From Caryophanales bacterium (lineage in GTDB: Bacteria; Bacillota; Bacilli; Paenibacillales; CANHCR01), in contig CANHCR010000013.1 in assembly GCA_947459205.1 (NCBI GenBank), positions 1 to 56,013 of the forward strand: a stretch of DNA of 56,013 nt, given 5' to 3'. Shown here piece after piece: positions 14,126 through 20,091 of the stretch. Made by a program: the position numbers and the translations under genes. Numbering within the stretch: position 1 is the first letter of the stretch; the number at the start of each line of letters is the position of its first letter. The notes beneath the pieces were generated by a model that saw only the letters and a list, made by a program, of their open reading frames with translations, did not search any database and was not told the origin of the DNA.

Positions 14126-14158
14126 AAACTCCGCCCGAATCATGGGGCGGAGTTTTTT
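14126..14158 (+). terminator. Terminator shared by converging genes
   Basis: A perfect 11-bp stem, AAACTCCGCCC (14126-14136) with GGGCGGAGTTT (14145-14155), followed by a T run. It terminates the 505-residue protein gene. The stop codon and last codons of the photolyase gene on the other strand lie inside the hairpin. Confidence -1.
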
Positions 14159-15510
14159 GCTTTTTCGAGGATGACTTTATATGTGTCGATGGAGCGCTGA
14201 CGACTCTCTTTCAAATCGACGAGGGCATTCGCTTGTTCGAGATGGATTTGTTCTTGTGATAGGTGGCGTAGTTCGGGCAACCATTTGCGTAAATACTGAC
14301 CTTGCACGTCGAAACGCTGCGATTGTGTGACAGGGTTCATCACGCGGAAGTAAGGAGCGCCATCATAGCCGAGCGAACTACTCCATAGCCAACCGCCGCG
14401 ATTGAGTGCGTTATCGTAATCTAGCAGTTTTCTGCGGAAATGTCGTTCGCCGAGCGTGAACGGACAGAGCAAGTTTTTCGTCAGAAACATCGCCGTCACC
14501 ATCCGCAAGCGATTGTGCATATGTCCGGTCTCATTTAGTTCGCGCATCGCAGCGTCGATAATCGGAATCCCGGTTTCGCCGCAAGCCCAACGTTCGTAGT
14601 GCTCATCACTCAACAGACTGAAGTCGTAGTTGTTCTCGAAAGCAAAATAGTCTGGCGTCATCACCGATTGATAGATGTAAAAGTCACGCCACGCCAACTG
14701 ACGAATCCAAGCATCACTGCCGCTCACTCGCTCAATCAAGGCGGTCTCATACACTTCACGCGCTGAGATGGCGCCCGTATTCAAAAAAAGACTGATACGA
14801 CTGGTGCTGTCATAGTGATAGAAATCACGCGCTTCTTTGTAATGTTCGACCTGCGTCTCGAGAAAAGTTGCGATTTTTTTGCGCGGTGCATCGGCTGCAA
14901 GCGCTAATTTACGATGTTCTGCTACTGGATAAATTTGCGGATTGGCGGCAAATTGCGAACGTATGACCTCGTTCAACTCATGAACATCGAGATCTGCAAT
15001 CGATTCGTTATAGACGACTGGCGGATGCAGTTGCAAAAAATCACTCCATTTGCGATAAAATGGCGTGAATACTTTGTAAGTGTCGGGTTTGCCGCTAAAA
15101 CGTTGAAACGCTCGCGGATGAACGAGTGAGAGGTCGTCGAAGGCACGCACATGAAGTCCGAGTTGACGTGCTGTTTCGTTCATCGCCAAGTCTCTTTTGT
15201 GAGCATAAGGCGTGCTGTCGGTATGGTACACAAGTTCATGAATATTGTGATGTTTCTTAATCGTTTCGATGATTCGGTTGACGTCACCTTGTAGGATGTG
15301 TAACGTTTTGCCGTAATAATCATACTGATGTTCGAGTGCTTCCAATCTCTGTAGAAACGCGCGACCGCTTGGCTCATCGTGGCGACCGTCATCTAGCAAA
15401 TTTTCATCGAGAATAAATAGATGAATGGAAGGCGCACGATGTTGCGACATGTGTGTAAAAGCAGGCAAATCACTCGCGCGCAGATCTTTGCGATGAATAA
15501 ATAAGTACAT
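14140..15510 (-). CDS. phr: Class I deoxyribodipyrimidine (CPD) photolyase
   Basis: A 456-residue photolyase that uses FADH- and light to split cyclobutane pyrimidine dimers. The N-terminal Rossmann antenna domain starts MYLFIHRKDLR. The C-terminal FAD domain carries the family patterns WRDFYIYQ, ETGIPIIDAAMREL, MHNRLRM, DYDNALNRGGW and the CPD-type WLWSS...AP end. The ATG at 15510 follows AAGGAGG with ideal spacing. It is downstream of a small membrane protein gene (26-bp gap) in a unit divergent from a CarH/LitR-type regulator, which strongly suggests light-induced expression. Its 3' end runs into the terminator of the opposing gene. Confidence -1.
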   Translation of the reverse strand: MYLFIHRKDLRASDLPAFTHMSQHRAPSIHLFILDENLLDDGRHDEPSGRAFLQRLEALEHQYDYYGKTLHILQGDVNRIIETIKKHHNIHELVYHTDSTPYAHKRDLAMNETARQLGLHVRAFDDLSLVHPRAFQRFSGKPDTYKVFTPFYRKWSDFLQLHPPVVYNESIADLDVHELNEVIRSQFAANPQIYPVAEHRKLALAADAPRKKIATFLETQVEHYKEARDFYHYDSTSRISLFLNTGAISAREVYETALIERVSGSDAWIRQLAWRDFYIYQSVMTPDYFAFENNYDFSLLSDEHYERWACGETGIPIIDAAMRELNETGHMHNRLRMVTAMFLTKNLLCPFTLGERHFRRKLLDYDNALNRGGWLWSSSLGYDGAPYFRVMNPVTQSQRFDVQGQYLRKWLPELRHLSQEQIHLEQANALVDLKESRQRSIDTYKVILEKAKNSAP

Positions 15511-15536: not shown

Positions 15537-15962
15537 TTAAGATTCAGAATGTTTGACGAGCAGCAACGCCAGCACCCAACCGTAGAGCAAGTGTGCGCTT
15601 AACCACCACATCCATGCCTGAGCGTCTGTGATTTCCGGGGTGCGGTCGGACATTACGGTCGAAGGGAATAGCAAAATGCCAATGATCAGAGCGAACATCA
15701 CGATGATGGCAATGGAGCGCTCTCGTCTTGGCGAGCGTGGAATGATGAATTTGGCGATGAACCAGCTGAGCAAAACGGCAATCACCATATGCATGCTGAG
15801 TTCTAGCCACTCGATGCCGGTTGCGGCGCGGGCGAGCGGGATGTAATCGACATTGAGCAATAACGTGTAAACTTTAATTTGTGTCATCGATTCAACAACA
15901 CGTAAAAACCCTGCCATGATGAGACCGCTGATGATGCCAGCCCAAAAAATTTTCATGCTCAT
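15537..15962 (-). CDS. Small four-helix integral membrane protein
   Basis: About 141 residues with four predicted membrane segments, near residues 3-20, 40-70, 80-100 and 115-138. I do not recognise a named family with confidence; it loosely resembles small YagU/DUF1440-like membrane proteins. GGAGGT precedes the ATG at 15962; a frame extension to 16019 would run into the operator region and lacks a ribosome binding site. It is the first gene of the photolyase unit and faces the B12-dependent regulator, so it is probably part of the light response, but nothing in the sequence reveals its activity. Confidence -1.
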   Translation of the reverse strand: MSMKIFWAGIISGLIMAGFLRVVESMTQIKVYTLLLNVDYIPLARAATGIEWLELSMHMVIAVLLSWFIAKFIIPRSPRRERSIAIIVMFALIIGILLFPSTVMSDRTPEITDAQAWMWWLSAHLLYGWVLALLLVKHSES

Positions 15963-15978
15963 AGTGACCTCCGATTGA

Positions 15979-16061
15979 TGTATATACTTTTGAAAAAAAA
16001 TGTATATCGCACTGTACATTTATTGTATAAGTATTGTATAATTATTTCGGTGTTTTGTACA
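15979..16061. promoter_or_regulatory. Predicted CarH/LitR operator: TGTAYA repeats on an 11-bp grid
   Basis: Six direct copies of TGTA(T/C)A start at 15979, 16001, 16013, 16024, 16035 and 16056. The spacings are 22, 12, 11, 11 and 21 bp, close to one or two helical turns. The array lies between the regulator gene and the divergent membrane-protein/photolyase unit. From memory, Thermus CarH binds 11-bp direct repeats with a TACA core, which fits. The repeats overlap the probable regulator promoter. Confidence -1.
16013..16042 (+). promoter_or_regulatory. Probable promoter of the CarH/LitR-type gene, within its operator
   Basis: TATAAT (16037-16042) preceded at 18 bp by TGTACA (16013-16018, 4 of 6 match to TTGACA). 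Both boxes overlap the direct repeats, as expected for an autorepressed gene. Confidence -1.
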
Positions 16062-16084: not shown

Positions 16085-16978
16085 ATGCACGTCTACAACA
16101 TCAAAATGGTGTCAAAACTTGTAGGGATTCCGACAGTTACGATACGTGCTTGGGAAAAAAGATACGAAGTTGTCACGCCGCAACGAACGCATAGCGGTCA
16201 TCGTCTCTATTCGGATCAAGACATTGAAGACTTGTTGTGGTTGAAAAAACAAATCGACGAGAACGGTTTGACTATCAGTCAGGCGATCAAGCGTTTGCGT
16301 CAGATGAGAGAGTCGCTAGACAAGAAAGTTTCGATTGCCGTAGAACAAAGTGCTTATCAGGGATACGCCGAGCAAATCTATCAGGCACTTGTTAACTTTC
16401 GCAGCGATCAGGCGAACCATTTGATCGACTTGGTATTTTCGATGTTTCATTACGAGGAAGTTTTCCATAAAATTTTGGCGCCGATTTTGCAAAAAGTTGG
16501 TGAGGATTGGGAACGTGATGAGGTGAATGTCACGCAAGAACATTACATCACGAATTTGCTCGTCAATCGGTTTTATCAGTTTTTCCGGATTCATCCGACG
16601 AATCCCATGCTTCCTAAAGTATTGGCGTTTTGTCCGTCCGGCGAACAACATTTTGTTGGACTGCTGTTGTTCACATTATATTTGCGAAAACATGGTGTCG
16701 ATGTTATTTTTCTCGGTGCAGACACGCCGGTGGAAACGCTCATGCCTGTGATTATTGAGAAAAAAATTAATGTGATAGCGATGTCCACTTCTGACGCAGC
16801 ACTACTTGAGCCGATTTATGAGTGGGTTCGCCAGCATAAGTATCAACTGTATCACATATCGATGGTGGTTGGTGGTAGTTGTCATCTCGAGGTGCCAGAA
16901 GATGTGCCGATTCATTTTTTGGGCGGTGATGTCGAACGGTGGAAAACATGGTTTGAAGATACAATCCGTCCGCTTTAA
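16085..16978 (+). CDS. litR: CarH/LitR-type B12-dependent light-sensing MerR repressor
   Basis: A 297-residue protein with a MerR-type winged helix (about 1-72), a four-helix cap domain (about 90-170) and a cobalamin-binding Rossmann domain (about 176-297). The cap carries the CarH signature W-x9-E-H (Trp142, Glu152, His153). GEQH places His189 where CarH has its lower cobalt ligand; Trp-to-His spacing is 47 here against 46 in Thermus CarH as I recall it. Such proteins bind DNA as adenosylcobalamin tetramers in the dark and are released by light. The gene diverges from the photolyase unit across a repeat array that fits this family, and is followed after 44 bp by an RND exporter gene. Confidence -1.
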   Translation: MHVYNIKMVSKLVGIPTVTIRAWEKRYEVVTPQRTHSGHRLYSDQDIEDLLWLKKQIDENGLTISQAIKRLRQMRESLDKKVSIAVEQSAYQGYAEQIYQALVNFRSDQANHLIDLVFSMFHYEEVFHKILAPILQKVGEDWERDEVNVTQEHYITNLLVNRFYQFFRIHPTNPMLPKVLAFCPSGEQHFVGLLLFTLYLRKHGVDVIFLGADTPVETLMPVIIEKKINVIAMSTSDAALLEPIYEWVRQHKYQLYHISMVVGGSCHLEVPEDVPIHFLGGDVERWKTWFEDTIRPL

Positions 16979-17022: not shown

Positions 17023-20000
17023 ATGAACTTTCTAATTAAATTCAGTCTCAAAAATCCAATCGCAATCATCATCCTATCCATCATGCTGATGGTTGTAGGA
17101 GCGCTGTCATTTTCTAGTCTTAAAGTTGACTTGTTGCCGAACATCGAATTTCCGCAAGTGACGGTGCAAGGAATTTATCCCGGTGCATCGCCGCAGGACG
17201 TGAATGACAAGGTGACGGTACCTTTAGAGGATAAGTTAAAAGAACTGACTTCAGTCTCAAAAGTACAAAGTCAGTCGATGGAGAGCGTATCGTTCATCTC
17301 CTTGGAGTTTCCACTTGGTACGGATATGGATGAAGTCGCACAAAAGTTGAATGAGTTAGTGAAGGAAACCAAATTGCCAGAGGAAGTGACGATTGAGCAG
17401 CAACGGTTCTCATTCGGTACGTTCCCGATTCTGAATTTAGCGTTGTTCGGAAAAGGCGATACGGAAATAAATAGTCTTGTCGAGAATGAGTTGCAACCTG
17501 AACTTGAGCGAATTCCAGGAGTCAGCAGTATCGCCATTGGTGGCACATATACGGAATTGCTCGAAATCACGGTGAATAAGCAGAAAGCTGCTCAATACGG
17601 GATCACGCTAAACTCCATCAAGACAAAAATTGATTCGTTATTTTTCTCGTTCCCTGCAGGAACAATCGTCCAGAATAAGATTGCCGTGCCCGTTCGAATT
17701 GAGGAGAAGGTGCAATTTCTTGACGAGTTGAAGAAGATTAAATTTGAAAGCGCGACTTTAGGTGCGCCGAGCGGGTTTGGTGGCGTAGCGCCTGCACCTC
17801 AGTCCGCAAATTCGATTGCATTGGGTGATTTGGCCACTTTTAATGAAATCAAAGAAAAAGATCAGTTGATTCGCTACAATCAAAAGACCGCAGTCGCATT
17901 GACAGTGACAAAGAAACAAGATGCGAATACGGTAGAAGTTGCGGACAGTGTGATGGCTGTACTCGATAAGTATAGCAAAAAAATGGAATACAAATTGGTG
18001 TTTGACCAAGCTGAGGGCATCAAACAGTCGGTCAACAGTTTGCTCAAAGAAGGACTATTCGGCGCATTATTCGCATCGTTAGCAGTGTTGCTGTTCTTGC
18101 GCCGTTGGTTGGCGACGTTTATTGCGATTTTGTCGATTCCGTTGTCGCTATTGGTAGCTAGCATTTTGCTTGCTCGATACGGCATCACGCTCAATATCAT
18201 GACGCTCGGCGGAATGGCAGTTGCCGTTGGCCGTGTCGTTGATGATAGCATTGTCGTTATCGAAAATATTTATCGAAGGTATGCCAAGAGCGATGAGTCG
18301 GTGAGTAAATCGGAACTGACGGCGGTAGCGACAAAAGAAATGTTGTCGGCCATCACTTCTTCGACGATTACGACGATTGTCGTATTTTTACCACTTGGAC
18401 TCGTTGGCGGAATTACCGGTGAATTTTTCTTGCCGTTTGCGCTTACGATTGTGTTTGCTTTGCTTGCCTCACTTATTGTTTCGATTACGATTGTTCCGGT
18501 GCTTGCACAATATGCGTTCCGTAAACTTAATAGTGTAGAAGTAGAAAAAGAATCGAAACTTCAAGTGTGGTACGGCAAACTGATTTCTTGGTCGTTGCGC
18601 CGTAAAGTATTGGTCTTACTGCTCTCGTTTGTTTTGCTCATTTCATCTTTTGGACTTGTACCATTACTTGGGTTTACGTTTATCCCGAACGAAGAACAAC
18701 GTTTGCTGATTGTCGGTGCAGAGATGCCGACTTCGACAACGCTCGACAAGATGAACGAGATGTCGAGTGATTTAGAGAAACAAATGATTGAAAATTCAAA
18801 GGTCAAAAATGTATTCGCCAGTATCGGCGCACGTGATTTTGCGATGGGCGTACGACGAACGAATCTTGCTCAATACTTTGTCGAATTGAAGGATACTGCA
18901 GTCGTAAAAACAGAAGTAAAAAATATGCAGAAGCAATTAGAGTCGATGATGGCTTCCAAGTATCCAGATGGGGTGGTCAATGTCCAAGAAGCACCTTCTG
19001 GCGGACCGCCGTCGAACAACAACATTGATGTCAATCTTTATTCTTCGGATGCGGATTCACTCGCCAAAGCGGCATCGATGGTCGAGAAGTTGATGGTAGA
19101 GAATGATAAACTGAAATATGTTAGTAACAATTTGCAAGAAAAGCAGAAGCAGCTAGTTATAAAAATTGACCCGCAAAAAGCAAATGACGCTGGTGTTTCT
19201 GGCTTTGCAGTTCTCGGTGTAATCGGTGATCAAACAAGAGCAGTTGATGCTGGTACGTTGACGTTAGATGGCAAACAGTCGAAGGTTCAACTAGCTTACG
19301 ATCAATCTTTAACTGGCAAAGGACAAATTGAGGCGCTAAAGGTTTTTGGTAAAAACGGACCGTTGCCTCTTACAGCAGTTGCGAAAGTTGAAGAAACGGA
19401 AGCCATCACCAATATACAAAAATTGGACGGCAAGCAATATGCGCAAGTGACAGCACAAGTGAATGATGCCAATACTCGAGCGGTATCGACGGAAGTCATT
19501 GCAGCGGTTGAAAAACTTAAACTGCCGGCAGGAGTCAGTTTAAATGCTGGCAGCGGAAGTGATGAAACGTTACAGACGTTTATCGATTTGCTCGTCGCAA
19601 TGCTTGTCGCCATCGGACTTGTTTACATCGTCATGCTTGTTACATTCGGCAAAGCACGCACACCGTTTGTCATCTTGTCTTCTCTGTTGTTCATTCCGGT
19701 CGGGGCATTGCTTGGCTTGTTCATCACCTCCGAACCGTTGTCACTTAGCGCAATGATTGGTGTTTTGATGCTCATCGGAATTGTCGTCACGAATGCGATT
19801 GTATACGTTGACCGCGTTGGGCAAAATCGCGATCGTGGACTGGAACTTGAGGAGAGTTTGGTCGAAGCTGGAAAAACACGTTTGCGTCCGATCCTAATGA
19901 CCGCTTTTGCTACGATTTGTGCCTTGTTGCCACTCGCTTTCACTGCTAGCGAAGGGAATCTAATATCAAAAGGATTGGCAGTCGTGGTCATCGGTGGGTT

Positions 20001-20091
20001 GACGACTTCTACGCTGTTGACATTAGTTATTGTACCGATTTTCTACGCAATCTTTTTCCGGAAAGATGGTAAAGTTAAAACACAAGCATAG
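17023..20091 (+). CDS. RND family exporter (AcrB/SwrC-like)
   Basis: A 1,022-residue RND permease with the usual two-fold layout: a membrane helix, a large external loop, six helices, then a repeat of the same plan. The proton-relay aspartates appear in TM4 (GRVVDDSIVVIEN). The second half carries GIVVTNAIVYVD. It is close in size to Gram-positive SwrC/YerP exporters of lipopeptides and other amphiphiles. No membrane-fusion or outer-membrane partner is present, as expected in a Gram-positive organism. The ATG follows GAGGGAA. It lies 44 bp after the light-sensing regulator gene with no visible terminator between, so the two may share a transcript. Confidence -1.
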   Translation: MNFLIKFSLKNPIAIIILSIMLMVVGALSFSSLKVDLLPNIEFPQVTVQGIYPGASPQDVNDKVTVPLEDKLKELTSVSKVQSQSMESVSFISLEFPLGTDMDEVAQKLNELVKETKLPEEVTIEQQRFSFGTFPILNLALFGKGDTEINSLVENELQPELERIPGVSSIAIGGTYTELLEITVNKQKAAQYGITLNSIKTKIDSLFFSFPAGTIVQNKIAVPVRIEEKVQFLDELKKIKFESATLGAPSGFGGVAPAPQSANSIALGDLATFNEIKEKDQLIRYNQKTAVALTVTKKQDANTVEVADSVMAVLDKYSKKMEYKLVFDQAEGIKQSVNSLLKEGLFGALFASLAVLLFLRRWLATFIAILSIPLSLLVASILLARYGITLNIMTLGGMAVAVGRVVDDSIVVIENIYRRYAKSDESVSKSELTAVATKEMLSAITSSTITTIVVFLPLGLVGGITGEFFLPFALTIVFALLASLIVSITIVPVLAQYAFRKLNSVEVEKESKLQVWYGKLISWSLRRKVLVLLLSFVLLISSFGLVPLLGFTFIPNEEQRLLIVGAEMPTSTTLDKMNEMSSDLEKQMIENSKVKNVFASIGARDFAMGVRRTNLAQYFVELKDTAVVKTEVKNMQKQLESMMASKYPDGVVNVQEAPSGGPPSNNNIDVNLYSSDADSLAKAASMVEKLMVENDKLKYVSNNLQEKQKQLVIKIDPQKANDAGVSGFAVLGVIGDQTRAVDAGTLTLDGKQSKVQLAYDQSLTGKGQIEALKVFGKNGPLPLTAVAKVEETEAITNIQKLDGKQYAQVTAQVNDANTRAVSTEVIAAVEKLKLPAGVSLNAGSGSDETLQTFIDLLVAMLVAIGLVYIVMLVTFGKARTPFVILSSLLFIPVGALLGLFITSEPLSLSAMIGVLMLIGIVVTNAIVYVDRVGQNRDRGLELEESLVEAGKTRLRPILMTAFATICALLPLAFTASEGNLISKGLAVVVIGGLTTSTLLTLVIVPIFYAIFFRKDGKVKTQA

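Follow-up and report, generated by a model that had tools for sequence, protein, structure and literature searches.

A six-copy TGTAYA array between a CarH-type regulator gene and a photolyase unit as a predicted light-responsive operator in a Paenibacillales bacterium

The divergent locus and its repeat array

The 56,013-nucleotide stretch of DNA analysed here (the window) contains a 122-bp intergenic region that separates two divergent genes, one starting at position 15962 on the - strand and encoding a membrane protein, the other starting at 16085 on the + strand and encoding a regulator, CarH1. The membrane-protein gene (15537-15962, - strand) is an open reading frame for 141 amino acids, for which no Pfam or NCBIfam match was found. 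It is the first gene of the leftward unit and is followed, 26 bp downstream on the same strand, by phrA (14140-15510, - strand), identified as a DNA photolyase gene by Pfam and NCBIfam. This gene order agrees with a sequence-only reading of the same DNA, which had placed a photolyase unit divergent from the regulator. To the right, carH1 (16085-16978, + strand) is followed after 44 bp by a gene on the same strand for an AcrB/RND-family transporter (17023-20091, + strand; Pfam). The transporter gene is possibly co-transcribed with carH1 and would then be read from the predicted light-controlled carH1 promoter.

A word scan of the window located six copies of TGTAYA on the + strand of the intergenic region, exactly at the starts given by the earlier reading. 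Repeat 1 (TGTATA, 15979-15984) is an outlying copy within the leader of the membrane-protein gene, 22 bp ahead of repeat 2 (TGTATA, 16001-16006). Repeat 3 (TGTACA, 16013-16018) follows at 12 bp, repeats 4 (TGTATA, 16024-16029) and 5 (TGTATA, 16035-16040) at further steps of 11 bp each, and the palindromic repeat 6 (TGTACA, 16056-16061) lies 21 bp past repeat 5. Two intermediate positions on the same strand would be empty slots of the array: TTGAAA (15990-15995), which falls on the 11-bp grid and could count as a pseudo-repeat with a weak match to the word, and TTCGGT (16046-16051). The intervals had been described as close to 11 or 22 bp; they do follow a grid of about 11 bp, but an imperfect one with two empty slots and one 12-bp step.

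Over the whole window TGTAYA occurs 47 times as compared to 40.1 expected; the word is not enriched, and the clustering itself is therefore the special feature. Dinucleotide shuffling of the 122-bp intergenic region (50,000 rounds) never gave more than three copies, nor a chain of three copies at 10-12 bp. A CarH operator can be defined as three or more 11-bp direct repeats of the TnnACA type in tandem, pseudo-repeats included; with four contiguous copies (steps of 12, 11 and 11 bp) and two outliers, the array agrees with this definition.

The repeats coincide with promoter-like elements. A consensus scan gave a pair for carH1 that consists of TGTACA at 16013 (repeat 3, the best -35-like hexamer of this promoter), a spacer of 18 bp and the -10-like hexamer TATAAT (16037-16042, + strand), which lies inside repeat 5. 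On the - strand, repeat 6 resembles a -35 hexamer and TACAAT lies 17 bp from it; this pair is a possible candidate for the divergent promoter. The proposed overlap of the repeats with the promoter boxes of the regulator is thus present at repeats 3 and 5 as a consensus match only, at a density near chance (three matches found, 1.3 expected). A -10-like element is also contained in the unit TGTATAAT, which would suit a view of the cluster as plain AT-rich promoter sequence to which no regulator binds. We regard this as hardly credible, as it is contradicted by the shuffles, by the genome-wide rarity of the array (no match to reversed-pattern controls) and by its conservation across families at functionally coherent genes (see below).

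Two CarH paralogues and the supply of cobalamin

CarH1 is composed of a MerR helix-turn-helix, a four-helix and a Rossmann B12-binding domain, and its matches to PF13411, PF02607 and PF02310 are all above the Pfam cut-offs. The closest PDB chains are those of Thermus CarH (3whp and 5c8d, E about 1e-28 to 2e-28). In the alignment W142, E152, H153 and the histidine of EQHFVG correspond to Trp131, Glu141, His142 and His177 of the Thermus protein, respectively; the equivalent of His177 is the cobalt ligand within the ExHxxG motif, and the W-x9-EH residues that contact the adenosyl group are also kept. The roles of Trp131, Glu141 and His177 in Thermus CarH have been reported (PMC10442372). Both halves of the CarH signature that had been noticed next to the array, W142-x9-E152-H153 and GEQHFVG, are present. 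The best NCBIfam match is the CarH equivalog NF052513, with 140 bits and below the cut-off of 400, a value so high that it suggests a narrow model group; membership is therefore claimed for the broader CarH/class I LitR family. Assignment of CarH1 as a CarH/LitR class I relative is supported, and its dependence on AdoCbl and light is predicted.

In Thermus CarH, His132 becomes the upper ligand after light, and this ligand is reported to drive disassembly of the tetramer. CarH1 has Glu at this position, as do nearly all Bacilli CarH homologues in the tree and alignment, including one from Priestia. The Glu was considered as evidence against a CarH assignment and set aside, since most Bacilli homologues share it. 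A His132 equivalent is probably not a defining feature of the family outside Thermus, and the step after illumination may differ from that in Thermus in CarH1 or the Bacilli CarH group.

The genome harbors a second CarH gene, carH2 (G000:C21, L031:4742-5659). Its product retains the B12-site residues (ETHHIG and W-x9-EH) and has His at the position of Thermus His132, in contrast to the Glu of CarH1. The two proteins are 39% identical and both fall in a Paenibacillaceae-type clade, on separate branches with weak to moderate support. A recent duplication was considered and found unsupported in view of this identity and the separate branches, whose support is weak.

Cobalamin supply is indicated by a riboswitch at C1:26351 (117 bits), which precedes an ABC transporter gene and cobT/cobU/cbiB/cobS-like genes, the latter named by reading their sequences without a family search, and by a cob(I)alamin adenosyltransferase gene near the riboswitch (C1:34102). 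Because riboswitch, cob genes and adenosyltransferase are all present, AdoCbl can probably be made or salvaged by this organism.

Alternatively, the array could serve not a photoreceptor but a B12-independent regulator of the MerR/LitR type, either CarA-like or of class II. Class II LitR proteins of Pseudomonas (PplR1/PmlR2) bind the word T(G/A)TACA, and their light-induced targets include photolyase and folE genes (PMC9758184). The reverse complement of TGTAYA, TRTACA, satisfies both this word and TnnACA. Across the Pseudomonas group (PplR1-3 and PmlR1/2) the word and the targets, namely photolyase, folE and an FAD-dependent oxidoreductase, resemble what is found here, and in one CarH copy of a relative (G011) the His ligand is lost (EYQQVG). 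However, the B12 site is incomplete in class II proteins, and PmlR2 responds to a LOV photoreceptor, whereas both CarH1 and CarH2 keep the ExHxxG and W...EH residues and both B12 domains, including PF02310, the Rossmann domain that class II LitR lacks. With genes for AdoCbl supply present as well, a B12-independent regulator is very improbable.

Arrays elsewhere in the genome and in relatives

The 2.5-Mb genome was surveyed by pattern searches and by inspection of the stretches around the matches. Three TGTAYA copies at 10-12 bp occur at four loci, as compared to none for the reversed control pattern. Apart from the array in the window (15979-16061, between carH1 and the membrane-protein/photolyase unit), such exact triples lie upstream of carH2 (G000:C21:34659, three copies) and at two divided loci. 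At C6:38537 the triple separates the glutathione peroxidase gene from a crtI-crtN-crtB operon that has another carotenoid gene, and at C55:9511 it separates folE from the gene for a crtD-like oxidase. With strict 11-bp spacing and at most three mismatches, 32 matches were obtained, against 3 for the control pattern. Near-perfect arrays precede a cupredoxin gene (C18:19290) and separate an ICMT-family/crtI pair from an aldehyde dehydrogenase gene (C6:36524); weaker ones lie upstream of the genes for an ABC1/UbiB-type kinase (C53:8474) and a second photolyase (C53:12022). About eight sites, that of the window included, and the coherent functions of the adjoining genes point to a light- and oxidation-defence regulon with two CarH proteins.

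Weak matches on C41, C49 and at C18:32507 were taken as chance, as was a two-copy match inside a cob gene (C1:30181). A match on C66 could be either a regulon site or due to chance. On C67, two back-to-back TGTATA pairs with 11-bp spacing (L062:2911-2970, G000:C67) precede the gene for a large secreted repeat-type surface protein; they may be a further regulon site or a chance occurrence.

The array word is shared by all sites, so the DNA cannot separate targets of CarH1 from those of CarH2. The operator might accordingly be used mainly by CarH2 or jointly by both paralogues, the adjacent CarH1 not being the main or sole regulator. CarH2 retains every residue of the B12 site, its own gene is preceded by the same array in three copies, and in Myxococcus two proteins of the CarH family are known to act on a single promoter (PMC9304148). 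On the other hand, carH1 divergently adjoins the array, and the arrays at both carH genes fit self-control. On balance a leading or shared role of CarH2 deserves serious consideration, at clearly less than even probability.

A second question is how much of the array in the window acts as operator. That only the four-copy core (16001-16040) does so, binding one tetramer as in B. megaterium CarH, with the copies at 15979 and 16056 arising by chance or being related to the promoter, comes close to an even chance. The core copies are contiguous, all other perfect sites in the genome consist of three contiguous copies, the slots at 15990 and 16046 match the word poorly, and copy 16056 can be explained as a mere -35-like hexamer. 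Shuffling of the flanks around the core, however, gave a copy on the left in about 1.7% and on the right in 0.5% of cases; for both flanks together the probability is about 8e-5, or 6e-6 if the copies have to lie on the helical grid. Moreover, extra copies two to three turns past the core are found at carH2 (TGTTCA at +22 bp) and at folE/crtD (TATATA and TGTACA), so the outlying copies of the window are not unique. These copies could accommodate a second oligomer on eight slots or provide weak or minor contacts. The sequence-only reading had suggested that more than one tetramer could bind, one for each divergent promoter, which is a conjecture at this stage. An unlikely elaboration is an operator of about 88 bp with eight slots (DR-dr-DR-DR-DR-DR-dr-DR), on which two CarH oligomers, possibly one each of CarH1 and CarH2, would sit over two overlapping divergent promoters; the paralogues, differing in post-light chemistry, would then jointly tune the regulon of about eight sites.

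Conservation in relatives was examined at two levels. Exact TGTANA triples are present in 89 of 300 genomes sampled from the order; many of them are TGTATAATGAGTGTAAATAATTTGTATA-like arrays, and those that could be placed lie upstream of carH. A scored scan covered 80 named homologue loci. Triples with a score of 13 or more out of 15 were 49-fold denser in the 330 bp preceding carH (39 in 26.4 kb) than elsewhere (20 in 660 kb), a strict chain scan having missed most of these arrays. Loss of the repeat spacing in relatives, which had been named as an argument against an operator, was not seen; 11-bp arrays occur upstream of carH across Paenibacillus and its neighbours. In Paenibacillus a second array is commonly found ahead of an adjacent crtI-crtN-crtB operon, and an array precedes folE-carH-carH in G011 and folE-carH-gpx in G019, operons which thus join genes that carry separate arrays in the genome of the window.

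Homologues of the 141-amino-acid membrane protein are found in 34 of 101 related genomes, in some cases in divergent orientation to crtI or crtD and accompanied by CarH-type arrays. In two other families the array lies about 70-130 bp upstream of the membrane-protein gene, which is located beside crtI in G001 and beside a crtD-like gene in G011. This uncharacterised family is predicted to be a likely light-induced partner of the carotenoid genes. None of 27 photolyase homologues in other genomes has an array upstream; control of the photolyase is therefore deduced from its position downstream of the membrane-protein gene, through which it seems to have joined the regulon here.

Two further observations concern the relatives. 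Many triples are of the TGTAAA type, for example TGTAAAATTTATGTAAA, with 11-bp spacing in Paenibacillus-like genomes, and seemingly represent a separate conserved repeat. In G011 two CarH-like genes are arranged in tandem, the first (L004:1501-2385) without the cobalt-ligating His (EYQQVG) and the second (L004:2496-3398) with it (EHHQIG); by analogy, this pair is a possible independent Firmicutes counterpart of Myxococcus CarA/CarH.

Predicted light switch and comparison with known operators

Because the array is rare, the B12-site residues are retained, arrays are shared genome-wide and conserved in relatives, and genes for AdoCbl supply are present, we consider it highly likely that a repressor of the class I LitR/CarH type uses the array as its operator. 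CarH binding, dark repression, release by light and the stoichiometry on the six copies are inferred from these comparisons. In the dark, AdoCbl-bound oligomers of CarH1, of CarH2 or of both would attach to the 11-bp TGTAYA/TRTACA tandem repeats and occupy the four-repeat core including TGTACA(18)TATAAT. Bound CarH would occlude two overlapping promoters, that of carH1 to the right and that of the membrane-protein/photolyase unit to the left, so that neither is transcribed. On illumination the Co-C bond of AdoCbl would be cleaved, upon which the CarH oligomer would fall apart or lose affinity. Its release would induce carH1, the photolyase unit and the other members of the regulon, among them glutathione peroxidase, the carotenoid genes, carH2 and folE.

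The locus would be a well-supported new case of an established kind of light switch in bacteria, with an unusually long array. It is distinguished by the length of the array, by two complete CarH proteins that share it and by the breadth of the predicted regulon, in which one operator word links carotenoid genes, two photolyases, folE, glutathione peroxidase, the ABC1 kinase and the cupredoxin. In the literature searched we found no study of CarH in this Paenibacillales lineage, for which a light regulon is predicted here. A natural long operator combined with a pair of CarH paralogues offers a direct test case for CarH stoichiometry and spacing tolerance (three, four, five or more slots).

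The known CarH direct repeat is 11 bp long, nnnnTnnACAn, and occurs three times for Thermus CarH, four times or three times plus a pseudo-repeat for B. megaterium CarH, and as a five-slot mix in Myxococcus (PMC9304148). The six copies here do exceed the three and four copies of the Thermus and B. megaterium arrays, as the sequence-only reading had proposed; its statement that Thermus CarH binds 11-bp direct repeats was correct, but the core is TnnACA and not TACA (PMC9304148). CarH/LitR of Thermus thermophilus shares the MerR and B12 domains and the Trp131, Glu141, His142 and His177 equivalents with CarH1, and its operator also consists of 11-bp direct TnnACA repeats. These overlap promoter elements in Thermus, whereas the promoter boxes in the present array are consensus matches near chance density. 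The differences lie in the number of repeats (three in Thermus, four core and two outlying copies here), in the Glu of CarH1 in place of His132 and in the two CarH paralogues of the present genome.

Similar to the Pcrt operator of Myxococcus xanthus, a five-slot grid with pseudo-repeats (DR1-dr2-DR3-DR4-dr5), the present grid contains slots of lower quality, and two family members acting on one promoter in M. xanthus find a parallel in the two CarH proteins of this genome. M. xanthus CarA, however, is B12-independent and antagonised by CarS, whereas CarH1 and CarH2 keep the B12 site.

Bacillus (Priestia) megaterium CarH/LitR is another Firmicute CarH with tandem 11-bp repeats, which in that species overlap promoter boxes (the boxes in the present array being consensus matches), with four repeats, or three and a pseudo-repeat, versus six exact copies and a photolyase unit in the window. 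A Priestia homologue in the tree has Glu after the Trp, as does CarH1; within the family, the B. megaterium type falls in another clade, which has good support. Relative to carH, the repeats of Priestia aryabhattai (L108) lie on the opposite strand, unlike here. The same opposite orientation is seen in the other Bacillaceae homologues L101, L106 and L133, as compared to most Paenibacillaceae.
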